Origin: Haloplanus rubicundus | GTDB taxonomy: Archaea; Halobacteriota; Halobacteria; Halobacteriales; Haloferacaceae | Assembly (NCBI RefSeq): GCF_003342675.1 | Contig: NZ_CP031148.1 | Location: 1 to 64,000, forward strand | DNA: 64,000 bases | Direction: 5' to 3' | Part shown: piece by piece, positions 31,877 through 35,586 of the stretch | How the letters are laid out: the number at the start of each line of letters is the position of its first letter | Numbering within the stretch: position 1 is the stretch's first letter | Position numbers and translations under genes: made by a program | The notes under the pieces: model-generated | The model's input: the letters and a program-made list of their open reading frames with translations, nothing else | Databases searched by the model: none | What the model was told of the DNA's origin: nothing

Positions 31877-32029
31877 CTATTCGTCCGTGTCGTTCCGGCG
31901 CCAGTTGCGCCGCTTGGGGTTGCGCGTCACCTGTCGGTCCGTCTTGAGCATGACCCACGCGGGCACGCGGCTGTTCTGGTTTTCCAGCTTTGCGAGGCGT
32001 TTCTTCTTCGCCTTCGATTTCTTGCCCAT
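31877..32029 (-). CDS. rpl39e: 50S ribosomal protein L39e
   Basis: A 50-residue basic protein lining the ribosomal exit tunnel: [19 protein letters not shown], then [19 protein letters not shown]. It opens the L39e-L31e-aIF6-LX-prefoldin-FtsY operon. Its ATG at 32029 follows a TATA-like ataaaatctt on the opposite strand near 32056, giving a leaderless or short-leader transcript. Confidence 0.97.
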
Positions 32030-32106: not shown

Positions 32107-32306
32107 TCAGGCGCCGTCGAACGGGTCCGCGAACCTGCCCCGGATGTAGTACCGGACGAAGTTCCCGTACGTTCGGTCGCCGGGGTGGTCCGCGACCTGT
32201 TCGTAGCGGACGATGCCGTCGGCGTTGAGTACGTCCCCGCCGGTGAGGCCGGTCCGCTCGACCTTCCGGCGTCTGGACTCGGAACGAACGCAATCGTAGG
32301 GGTTCG
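32107..32306 (-). pseudogene. Possible gene remnant downstream of repeated promoter module A
   Basis: The minus strand keeps an open frame whose last 35 residues look protein-like ([31 protein letters not shown]). No ATG, GTG or well-placed start follows promoter module A (32307-32327), and a second frame reads [10 protein letters not shown] just after it. It may be a frameshifted relic. Real, intact coding is not demonstrated. Confidence 0.3.
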
Positions 32307-32327
32307 CTATCGCAACATACGATTTAT
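32307..32327 (-). promoter_or_regulatory. TATA plus GTAT-N6-ATAC module, copy A
   Basis: Read on the minus strand: ataaatcgtatgttgcgata followed by g. It combines a TATA-like start (ATAAAT) with a half-site pair GTAT-N6-ATAG. It faces the possible gene remnant at 32107-32306. Confidence 0.55.
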
Positions 32328-32796
32328 CGACTGCGTGCGTGAGGCCCGAGGAAACCGCTGTTTCCGTGGCGAGAAGATTCACCACGTCGAAATCGGGGCG
32401 ACGTGGATGATCGAGTCCGCGGTGGTCGCCGAGCGGTTCGCGGCGGGGCGGCTGTCGACACCTCACGAGGTACTGGTCGACGACCCGTCTCGTCGACGGG
32501 CGTTCCTGCAGTCGGGGGCGACCGGTGTGCGCGCGCGATTGTGATGAGCCAGAACGACTGACTTCGAGAGCTCACAGGCCGAGTCTGCGAGAGCGACGTT
32601 GTGGTCCGGTTCGGCGCGACACCGGCCGCTTTCACGCCCCGACTGTCCACCACCGGGCAGGGTGAAATGGGCATCCTGCGGGCAGATCCGACGGCGTTCG
32701 AGAGCGAGAGCGCCTACCGAATCGCCCGCGTGTCGCCCCGACCGTTGATTAACCGCCGCTTCTACATCCGACCGTCGCCGGATGCGACAACCCAGT
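32328..32796. other. Intergenic region between promoter modules A and C
   Basis: About 470 bases between two divergent copies of the promoter module. Open frames exist on both strands but lack starts, ribosome-binding context and recognisable motifs. It may be a decayed gene. Confidence 0.4.
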
Positions 32797-32817
32797 ATAA
32801 ATCGTATGCCGCTATAC
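32797..32817 (+). promoter_or_regulatory. TATA plus GTAT-N6-ATAC module, copy C
   Basis: ataaatcgtatgccgctata followed by c, ending 19 bases before the ATG of the CocE-type hydrolase. The TATA-like part is 35-40 bases before the ATG, so the palindrome would lie between TATA and the transcription start, a repressor position. Confidence 0.65.
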
Positions 32818-32836
32818 AAAATGGAGAACACTACGG

Positions 32837-34612
32837 ATGCCACCGGACGAACCGACGGCCGCGTATCGGACCGACGACTACACCCACGAAGCGCCGGACG
32901 GCACGCATCTCGCGATCCGCGTGTTTCGGCCGACCGAGGCGAACGCACCGTTCCCGACCCTGCTCCAGCGAACGCCGTACGGCCGCCCCGAGACGCCCGA
33001 GGACCTCGGCGTCGCGGCCCGCGCGATAGACGCCGGCTACGCCGTCGCCTACGAGGACACGCGCGGACGCGGTGACAGCGGGGGTGCGTTCGAGCCGTGG
33101 ATTCACGAGGCGGCGGACGGCGCCGCGACGGTCGAGTGGCTGGCCGACCGCCCGTGGTCGACGGGCCGAGTGGGCACGTACGGCGGGTCCTCGCCCGGAC
33201 AGGTGCAGGTGCTCGCCGCCCTCGAACGCCCCGAGGGACTGGCAGCCATCGCACCGATGTTCGCGCCGAGCGACCTCCACCGCGCCGACTTCTTCCAGGA
33301 CGGTGCGATGAACGCGCAGGCGACGCTGACGTGGTCGTTCGACGCCGTCGCGGCCGATACCGTGGACCGACTCCACGCCGCGGGACGGCTCGACGACTCG
33401 ACGGCCGAAGCGGCCCACGACGCCATCGAATCGGCGACCGACGAGTTGCTGGAGACGGCCACGACACGGCCCCTGATCGACCTCCCCGCGGCCGTCTTCG
33501 CGGACGTGGACCTCCCGGCCGACGTGGCGCCGGCGGACCTCGTCCCCCACTGGGACGCGTGGCTCTCGCGCCCGACCTACGACGACTTCTGGCGCTTGTT
33601 CGACCCCGAACCCGACTACGGCCGGATCGAGGTCCCCGGCCTCCACGTCACCGGCTGGTACGAACTCTGCCAGTCGGGGACGCTCGCCAACTACCGCGGC
33701 CTGCGCGACCGGTCGTCCGCGCCCCAGCATCTGGTCGTCGGGCCGTGGACTCACGGCGACACGTCGGGCGAGGCCGGGGACCTGAATTTCGGGACCGACG
33801 CGAGCACCGACGCCTACGGCGTCTGGGAGACGCATCTGGCCTTCTTCGACACCTACGTGCGGAACTGCCCGCGGCCGCCGTTCGACGACGGCCGCCTCGT
33901 CGAGACGTTCCGGACCGAACTCGGGGGTGGCGGGTGGGAACGCCACGACGACTGGCCGCCGGCCGCCGCCGAGCGGGAGCGGTGGTTCCTGCGGAGTTCG
34001 GGGACGGCGGCCACGGACGGGGGGCGACTGACCCGCGACCCGCCGCCGAAGTTCGAATCGCCGGACCGGTGGACCCACGACCCGACCGATCCGGTTCCGA
34101 CCCGCGGCGGGCCGCTCTGCTGTGGCGACGTGGACGACGGCCCCTACGACCGGCGGGCCGTCGAACGCCGCGACGACGTGTGTACGTACACGACACCTCC
34201 GTTGTCGTCGGCGCTAGAGCTCGCCGGCCCCGTCCGTGCCGACCTGACGTTAGCCACGGACGCCCCGGACGCCGACGCCGTCGCGACGCTCGTCCACGTC
34301 GCGGACGAGGGGACGTACCCCATCACCAGCGGGATTCGACGCCTGCGCTATCGACGCGGCCGTGATCGGGAGGTTCCGGTCCCGGACGACCCGGTCCGCG
34401 TCGCCGTCGACATGTGGGACACGCACCACCGCGTGCCCGCGGGCGACCGACTCGGACTCGAGGTGGCGAGCAGCGACGCGCCGCGGTTCGATCCGCATCC
34501 GGGGACTGGGCGGCCGTGGCGGGCGACCGAGGAGGACGTGCGGCCGGCCGCACAGACGCTGTTCCACGAGCTGGACCGCGAGAGCACGCTGACGGTGACG
34601 CGGGCGCGCTGA
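32837..34612 (+). CDS. CocE/NonD family hydrolase (X-Pro dipeptidyl-peptidase S15-like)
   Basis: A 591-residue alpha/beta hydrolase with a C-terminal jelly-roll domain, a family that cleaves esters, amides or X-Pro dipeptides. The N-terminus has the usual APDGTHLAIRVFRP, then YEDTRGRGDSGG. The nucleophile elbow reads GTYGGSSPGQ, with Ser in place of the more common SYPG context. Asp and His of the triad are expected near residue 265 and in HLVVGPWTHGD. The C-terminal half (about 390-590) is beta-rich. It has no signal peptide, so it acts in the cytoplasm. A conserved promoter module precedes it. Confidence 0.85.
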   Translation: MPPDEPTAAYRTDDYTHEAPDGTHLAIRVFRPTEANAPFPTLLQRTPYGRPETPEDLGVAARAIDAGYAVAYEDTRGRGDSGGAFEPWIHEAADGAATVEWLADRPWSTGRVGTYGGSSPGQVQVLAALERPEGLAAIAPMFAPSDLHRADFFQDGAMNAQATLTWSFDAVAADTVDRLHAAGRLDDSTAEAAHDAIESATDELLETATTRPLIDLPAAVFADVDLPADVAPADLVPHWDAWLSRPTYDDFWRLFDPEPDYGRIEVPGLHVTGWYELCQSGTLANYRGLRDRSSAPQHLVVGPWTHGDTSGEAGDLNFGTDASTDAYGVWETHLAFFDTYVRNCPRPPFDDGRLVETFRTELGGGGWERHDDWPPAAAERERWFLRSSGTAATDGGRLTRDPPPKFESPDRWTHDPTDPVPTRGGPLCCGDVDDGPYDRRAVERRDDVCTYTTPPLSSALELAGPVRADLTLATDAPDADAVATLVHVADEGTYPITSGIRRLRYRRGRDREVPVPDDPVRVAVDMWDTHHRVPAGDRLGLEVASSDAPRFDPHPGTGRPWRATEEDVRPAAQTLFHELDRESTLTVTRAR

Positions 34613-35003
34613 ACGGTGCAGAGACGACGGGGTTCCATATAGCGAAATAGAATTTATGACGCGGCATTCGGGCACCGTTCGGAAGCGCTGCTGAAGTGAT
34701 CCCGACTCGCCGAGCCTGGAATCGCTGTCGTCCGGAAATCGGGGGTATCGTGCTCTTTCGGACCACGCGCGGTCCGTGCGTCACCGTTCGCGGCGGAGAC
34801 CTGCGACTCCCTTGCAGTCCATCCGGTGGTGGCGGGTGGGGTTTCGAATCGTTTCCGGTTCTCCGGCGCCTCCGACCACGACGGTGCGGGGGACGACCCA
34901 CACCGCCGAGCGCACGGGCCGTCCCGCTCGGAACCGGCCGGAACGCCTCGGTGGAGTCGGCAGAGCGGCCGGCGTTTCGGCGAGCGGTCGGTCCCGTCCC
35001 CCG
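34613..35003. other. Gene-poor stretch after the CocE-type hydrolase
   Basis: About 390 bases with no credible gene, bounded by promoter module D (minus strand) and module B (plus strand). Composition is normal for the genome. Open frames on both strands lack starts near the modules. Confidence 0.45.
34637..34657 (-). promoter_or_regulatory. TATA plus CTAT-N6-ATAT module, copy D
   Basis: Read on the minus strand: ataaattctatttcgctata followed by t. It is the most diverged copy of the four but keeps TATA, both half-sites and the spacing. It faces the 3' end of the hydrolase gene, so any transcript would be antisense to it. Confidence 0.45.
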
Positions 35004-35024
35004 ATAAATCGTATGTGGCGATAC
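35004..35024 (+). promoter_or_regulatory. TATA plus GTAT-N6-ATAC module, copy B
   Basis: ataaatcgtatgtggcgata followed by c. It matches copy A at 19 of 21 positions. It points toward the 3' end of the cyclic phosphodiesterase gene, so no sense gene lies behind it. Confidence 0.5.
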
Positions 35025-35034
35025 GAAACGAGGA

Positions 35035-35586
35035 TCATCCAAGCGGGAACCGCGCGACCGTCTCGTACACCGGTCCGTCGTCGGTCAGTCGACTCTCGGT
35101 GAGGCGCACCTCGGTCACGTCGTATCCGCCGACGGTAGGGTCGGCCTCGCGAACGACTCGCTGGACCGCCTCCTTACCCCGGGCGTCGTCCATCCGGGCG
35201 AGGGTGACGTGGGGCGTGAACTCGTGGTCTTCGGGGTCGAAGCCGAGCGCCGTCGTCTCGCGCTCGATTGTCTCGTGTAGACGGGTGAGTTCGGGACCGC
35301 CCTCGCGGACGCCCGTCCAGACGACGCTGATGTAGTCGAGCGAGGGGAAGACGCCGAAGCCGCCGACGACCATGTGGAAGGGGTCGACGCCGGCGTCGTC
35401 GACGGCCGTCGCGAGGGCCGCTTCGAGGGCGTCGAGGCGATCGGGGTCGACCTCTCCGAGGAACTTCAGCGTGACGTGGGCGCCCGCGGGGTCGACGGGT
35501 CGGAGACTTCCCACGGCGGGCAGGTGGGCCTGTGCGTCGGCGACGGCGTCGGGGTCGTCCAGGTCGACGCTGACGAACAGTCGCAT
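35035..35586 (-). CDS. thpR: RNA 2',3'-cyclic phosphodiesterase (LigT/ThpR)
   Basis: A 183-residue 2H phosphoesterase that opens 2',3'-cyclic phosphates in RNA. Both HxT motifs are present: AHVTLKFLG (about residues 36-44) and FTPHVTLARM (about 125-134). The start MRLFVSVDLDD is typical. It lies convergent to promoter module B and divergent from the TPR gene. Confidence 0.94.
   Translation of the reverse strand: MRLFVSVDLDDPDAVADAQAHLPAVGSLRPVDPAGAHVTLKFLGEVDPDRLDALEAALATAVDDAGVDPFHMVVGGFGVFPSLDYISVVWTGVREGGPELTRLHETIERETTALGFDPEDHEFTPHVTLARMDDARGKEAVQRVVREADPTVGGYDVTEVRLTESRLTDDGPVYETVARFPLG

Follow-up and report, generated by a model that had tools for sequence, protein, structure and literature searches.

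The window analysed here, a stretch of 64,000 nucleotides from the beginning of a Haloplanus rubicundus contig, holds four copies of one short motif around a gene for a CocE-type hydrolase, and raises the question of what these copies are for. An earlier note on this DNA had described them as a 21-bp promoter/operator module, belonging to a regulated cassette that had lost its other genes or to a mobile promoter unit. We conclude instead, with a probability of roughly 0.7, that each module is a copy of the core site at which a haloarchaeal Xer-type recombinase, Int, would recombine DNA, and that the modules delimit units resembling dif modules. That they are recombination sites is probable from the fixed geometry of the motif, its association with a recombinase gene, the bracketing of segments by inverted pairs and the targeting of the sites by transposons at a fixed distance.

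Four alternating sites around an accessory hydrolase gene

All four modules were located exactly where they had been reported (Table 1). Allowing up to three mismatches, we found five matches in 64 kb (the four modules and one weak match), against 0.07 expected from 100 shuffles of the window, none of which gave five matches. The orientations alternate along the window, A(-), C(+), D(-), B(+), with the hydrolase gene between C and D, that is, between two (-)(+) site pairs. The hydrolase ATG follows about 13 bp after the end of site C, the stop codon lies 17 bp from site D, and site B is 3 bp from the 3' end of the ligT-like gene. The gene remnants that some modules were thought to face were not substantiated, with no Pfam match to the ORFs of the A-C and D-B segments.

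Table 1. Coordinates of the sites, genes and transposon loci discussed in the text
Feature	Position	Strand	Remarks
Ribosomal protein eL39, left-hand anchor	31877..32026	(-)	Head of eL39-eL31-eIF6 operon; read from translation
Site A, candidate Xer/dif-like core	32300..32327	(-)	ATAAATCGTATGTTGCGATAGCGAACCC, motif score 38
21-bp module A as first noted	32307-32327	(-)	ATAAATCGTATGTTGCGATAG
A-C short segment	32328..32796		Without recognisable gene; partly conserved with G009/G002
Site C, candidate core site	32797..32824	(+)	ATAAATCGTATGCCGCTATACAAAATGG, score 44
21-bp module C as first noted	32797-32817	(+)	ATAAATCGTATGCCGCTATAC
CocE/NonD-family hydrolase, 591 aa	32837..34612	(+)	Pfam PF02129 (S15) and PF08530 (PepX_C), NCBIfam TIGR00976
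Site D, candidate core site	34630..34657	(-)	ATAAATTCTATTTCGCTATATGGAACCC, score 41
21-bp module D as first noted	34637-34657	(-)	ATAAATTCTATTTCGCTATAT
D-B short segment	34658..35003		Without recognisable gene; not conserved beyond the sites
Site B, candidate core site	35004..35031	(+)	ATAAATCGTATGTGGCGATACGAAACGA, score 39
21-bp module B as first noted	35004-35024	(+)	ATAAATCGTATGTGGCGATAC
ligT-like 2'-5' RNA ligase, right-hand anchor	35035..35586	(-)	Pfam PF02834
Further copies, same genome	C1:54018, C2:984689, C2:986454, C2:1880746, C2:1883122		Plus weaker ones
Int, Xer-type tyrosine recombinase, 338 aa	C2:1880791-1881804, same genome		In SRAP-DUF5805-int unit
HTH/ThiN-like-gene site	L010:758-785 (G000:C2:1877257); L044:5852 (G005:C1:208351)		Overlaps stop codon in G000
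ISH3-like transposon loci	L148:258-4032; L149:264-4028; L146:3386-5194; L010:6623-7501		

The hydrolase is an accessory gene, intact in only one of 40 relatives; at E<=1e-100 it was found only in G009. There it is 81% identical, about the same divergence as that of the neighbouring genes, and because of this resemblance we regard its gain as old. The gene is decayed in G002, and G005 keeps a remnant of its start beside a site. In this genome (G000), G009 and G002 the hydrolase gene lies at the centre of four alternating sites. In both of these relatives the position orthologous to site A is occupied and site C is conserved, and the homologue of site D is degraded (score 30 in G009, 20 in G002). 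A (+) site abutting the ligT 3' end was found in G002, G004, G006, G008 and G009, and most other Haloplanus genomes have a (-) site on the eL39 side.

All Haloplanus relatives carry sites in or beside the gap between ligT and eL39. G004, G006, G008 and G011 have a lone (-)(+) pair with ligT and eL39 as its immediate neighbours, and the interval is rearranged or larger, with sites present, in G001, G003, G005, G007 and G010. In three other families, in contrast, the gap contains no site (about 126 bp in G039, 111 bp in G034 and 152 bp in G030), a difference that we counted in favour of the acquisition of a site pair. We infer that such a pair entered the gap in the Haloplanus lineage, and that the hydrolase would then have been added together with two further alternating sites, C and D; a two-site circle integrating at A or B would add one gene and two alternating sites. 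Divergence of the A-C and D-B segments is too great for proof of which one was added. We also considered the D-B segment as the ancestral A-B segment, and rejected this upon nucleotide comparison, as the protein match in question was to ligT, reached through the 700-bp flank.

A 28-bp motif and the recombinase beside it

The true motif is longer than the 21 bp first noted. Across 86 distinct sites it spans about 28 bp, with A24 and A25 conserved in 96% and 76%, and the position weight matrix gives the consensus RTAAAYYGTAT-RTCGCK-ATAYnRAAt: imperfectly inverted arms, RTAAAYYGTAT and ATAYnRAAtnn, around a 6-bp centre, RTCGCK. It is thus more than the GTAT-N6-ATAC half-sites proposed earlier, the centre being both conserved and asymmetric. 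The spacing of the arms and the asymmetry of the centre resemble those of tyrosine-recombinase core sites and of dif sites, which have an 11-6-11 geometry (PMC2958812). The commonest centres are GTCGCG, ATCGCG, GTCGCT and ATCGCT, with others also present; they are thus not identical among sites, and the differences could limit exchange between some site pairs. Int would most likely bind the two arms and exchange strands within the centre.

Nor is the module a local feature of this locus. About 8-12 additional copies are present in the same genome, and matches occur in 32 of the 40 relatives searched and beyond the genus, whereas a reversed control pattern gave none in any genome. Each Haloplanus genome has about 8-12 sites, whereas an Xer/dif system would have a single one in the terminus region of each replicon. 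In its exact 26-base form the motif is confined to haloarchaea among 84,980 species genomes: it gave 35 matches, and all of the titled records are haloarchaeal, except one titled 'uncultured archaeon A07HR67', a stretch that also encodes SRAP and Int.

We identified Int in 37 of the 40 genomes, including all 31 of good quality, with identities of 47-93% across the order. Of 43 int loci (two strains being counted twice, L074/L173 and L082/L165), 42 have a site 3' of int. Its orientation is the same in every one of them, and its distance from the end of the gene is mostly 14-85 nt, with 371 nt as the maximum. These int-adjacent sites score 20-51, where the scoring null reached 14. In the sole exception, L092 (G032), the site is about 1 kb further on. 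Site copies on plasmids and smaller replicons adjoin other tyrosine recombinases.

Int is a Pfam phage_integrase/SAM_1 protein. The catalytic residues R147, K205/K207, H283, R286 and Y318 do not vary among 10 aligned Ints, and in all 10 an aspartate, D309, takes the place of the usual third histidine (the H/W position). The best NCBIfam match is archaeal XerA NF040815, at 105 bits against a cut-off of 220, and the XerC and XerD matches are likewise below cut-off. Int is its genome's best XerA-type match, yet since it falls short of the curated XerA, XerC and XerD cut-offs we call it Xer-like and not XerA. In chain-level comparisons it matched XerD 1a0p best, followed by P. abyssi 4a8e and XerA 5hxy.

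Bracketed gene units, transposons and competing readings

Of 62 pairs of neighbouring sites at most 3.5 kb apart, 53 are arranged (-)(+) (P about 2e-23), with their ATAAAT sides facing inward. As in dif modules, discrete gene segments lie between inversely oriented sites: rio2-rpl15e, gcvT-gcvH, SRAP-DUF5805-int, DUF5783-NifU and, in Halorientalis, rio2 alone. When the 700-bp flanks of the sites were clustered by translated similarity, the inner flanks were conserved and grouped by unit (int 31, rio2 10, rpl15e 10, gcvT 8, gcvH 8), whereas the outer flanks varied. The differing contexts of units are mostly found at family-level distance; within the genus, positions and orientations are largely vertical, and the flank table contained no module inverted between genomes.

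One gene family offers a comparison of related flanks beside different units. The 3' end of its ABC-transporter gene adjoins a site of gcvTH in G001 and G002, of a rio2 unit in G016 and of DUF5783-NifU in Salinigranum (L160), and 11 other top-ranked ABC-transporter loci had no site. The comparison is suggestive but not proof, and the orthology of these genes is not certain because the homologues are only 50-64% identical. Bracketed segments may have been gained or exchanged as dif-module-like units through recombination between sites; inverted sites would allow inversion and, with two adjacent units, excision and integration.

We additionally noted several features within or beside these units. 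A UPF0175 gene with a PIN-like partner adjoins a site in two genera (L009:6036-6986, L056:2597-3465), following rpl15e in Haloplanus and NifU, in the opposite orientation, in G012. A conserved non-coding sequence, TTGAAGATACTGGTTCCC, lies just inside the gcvH-side site in several Haloplanus species (L050:3350-3395; also L047, L049, L051 and L055). In two Halobacteriales MAGs, additional alternating sites around a segment of about 400 bp split rio2 from rpl15e (L169:1526-3908, L166:6245-7029), as though the two genes formed separate units.

The sites are also targets for a transposon family with an ISH3-like transposase, the ends of which begin AGTTGAGAC. In 16 cases an end begins outside the 28-bp site, at a distance of 8-12 bp from its outer edge, and only one other outward-facing end was found within 600 bp of a site. 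In G007 one end abuts a site and the far end, about 3.8 kb off, has none, from which we take the site to be the target of the transposon and not its terminus. Comparable behaviour is known in Acinetobacter, where dif and pdif sites receive IS1202-family elements in one orientation, at 5 bp from the XerC arm (PMC10132070). Some copies of the haloarchaeal transposon carry a MarR-like HTH gene paired with a PemK/MazF-like gene, and one end of the family holds a TTGAGAC/GTCTCAA hairpin.

Taking these results together, we tentatively propose, at somewhat less than even odds, that haloarchaea possess a multicopy, chromosomal Xer/dif-like system in which a single order-wide recombinase, with its gene beside one of the sites, acts on inverted site pairs around housekeeping and accessory units, in which these units have been gained and exchanged over evolution, and to which a dedicated transposon family homes. 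An alternative is that the Int sites serve only chromosome or plasmid maintenance, through dimer resolution or DNA architecture, with bracketing a by-product and the units immobile. The order-wide presence of Int and its adjacent site, the vertical conservation of unit positions and the occurrence on small replicons of single sites close to genes for recombinases or ParA would all agree with this. We nevertheless consider it unlikely in view of the strong bias to inverted pairs, the variable outer neighbours and the arrival of the accessory hydrolase with an extra alternating site pair.

The sites might otherwise be operators bound by a transcription regulator of haloarchaea, and the hydrolase, rio2-rpl15e, gcvTH and int would then belong to its small regulon, which we judge improbable. 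GTAT-N6-ATAC is partly palindromic and ATAAAT resembles a TATA box; site C directly precedes the hydrolase ATG (by about 13 bp), the distances from the ATAAAT edge to ORF starts on the inner side are concentrated at 45-65 nt, many sites precede inner genes by that much, and site positions are kept over genus-level time. Against this, a dimeric regulator needs no conserved asymmetric centre, the gene units have no common function, across the order the sites are associated most closely with a recombinase gene, at its 3' end, and transposons home to the site at a fixed spacing. The sites that follow rpl15e, int and gcvH face away from those genes, which also counts against the promoter/operator module of the earlier note. 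An outward start, in the direction that a promoter would drive, was found at 27 of 126 sites, and an inward start at 58 of 126; the TATA-like ATAAAT is present even in copies without a gene to drive. The fixed position in promoters of regulated genes that marks an operator regulon was not seen, and the distances and orientation misfit a core promoter. For rio2, the TATA element is likely a separate sequence downstream of the motif, GCTTTTGT, which lies at the right distance from the ATG (about 28 nt).

A promoter/operator regulon is rejected as the main reading because of the orientation of the sites, their positions behind genes, the asymmetric conserved centre and the association with a recombinase. 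Judged by position, site C may serve as the hydrolase promoter as well, whereas we expect no promoter function for A, B and D. The 'mobile promoter unit' of the earlier note pointed in the right direction as to a mobile unit, but not as to a promoter; the genome-wide search and comparison with relatives that it suggested did show non-random placement, which follows gene-unit boundaries and the recombinase gene rather than a promoter regulon.

That an insertion sequence or MITE family has these sites as its terminal inverted repeats is very improbable and was rejected: inverted pairs 0.2-2.7 kb apart with short non-coding interiors do look MITE-like, but the enclosed segments are mutually unrelated and include housekeeping operons, the short ones have no sequence in common beyond the sites (except the orthologous A-C segments of G000, G002 and G009), and the actual transposon has other ends of its own, only one of which abuts a site.

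Relation to known Xer/dif systems

A close parallel to the candidate recombination sites described here lies in the dif modules of Acinetobacter plasmids, with their pdif (XerC-XerD) sites (PMC6449649, PMC13141974). Both systems have short Xer-type sites with variable 6-bp spacers, inversely oriented pairs that bracket discrete gene segments, toxin-antitoxin-type genes nearby, and a dedicated IS at fixed distance and orientation from the site (PMC10132070). The putative haloarchaeal system differs in being archaeal and mainly chromosomal, with a single recombinase gene beside a site; its units include housekeeping genes, its site sequence is unrelated in detail, and its transposon is ISH3-like instead of IS1202-family. 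None of the papers searched describes archaeal dif modules, and the present work suggests that dif-module-like gene packaging and dif-hunting transposons exist there, bracketing core genes.

In the XerA/dif system of Thermococcales (PMC2958812), an Xer-type tyrosine recombinase likewise acts on an 11-6-11 site, as Int presumably does. Int is only distantly related to Thermococcales XerA, and whereas Thermococcales have one dif site per chromosome, away from xerA, the haloarchaeal site is multicopy, with one copy directly after int. XerS/difSL (PMC2958812) is similar in that one recombinase gene adjoins its own dif-like site, but has one site per chromosome instead of many in inverted pairs. 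For Haloferax volcanii, with 12 xerC/D-like genes, the existence of haloarchaeal dif sites, the relevance of individual Xer-like proteins and the part that these play in termination have been described as undetermined (PMC7776575); as a specific order-wide recombinase and a candidate site can now be named, this question becomes directly testable in a tractable model.

Finally, we noted single sites in other settings. In two Haloplanus species an HTH/ThiN-like gene follows the int unit and has such a site at its extreme 3' end (Table 1). Two related IMG/VR viral contigs have an identical exact site just upstream of the terminase large-subunit gene (L190:10408-10435, L191:3513-3540), and a third viral or plasmid-like contig has a site near a ParA-type gene (L192:2461-2488), where a multimer-resolution site might be expected.
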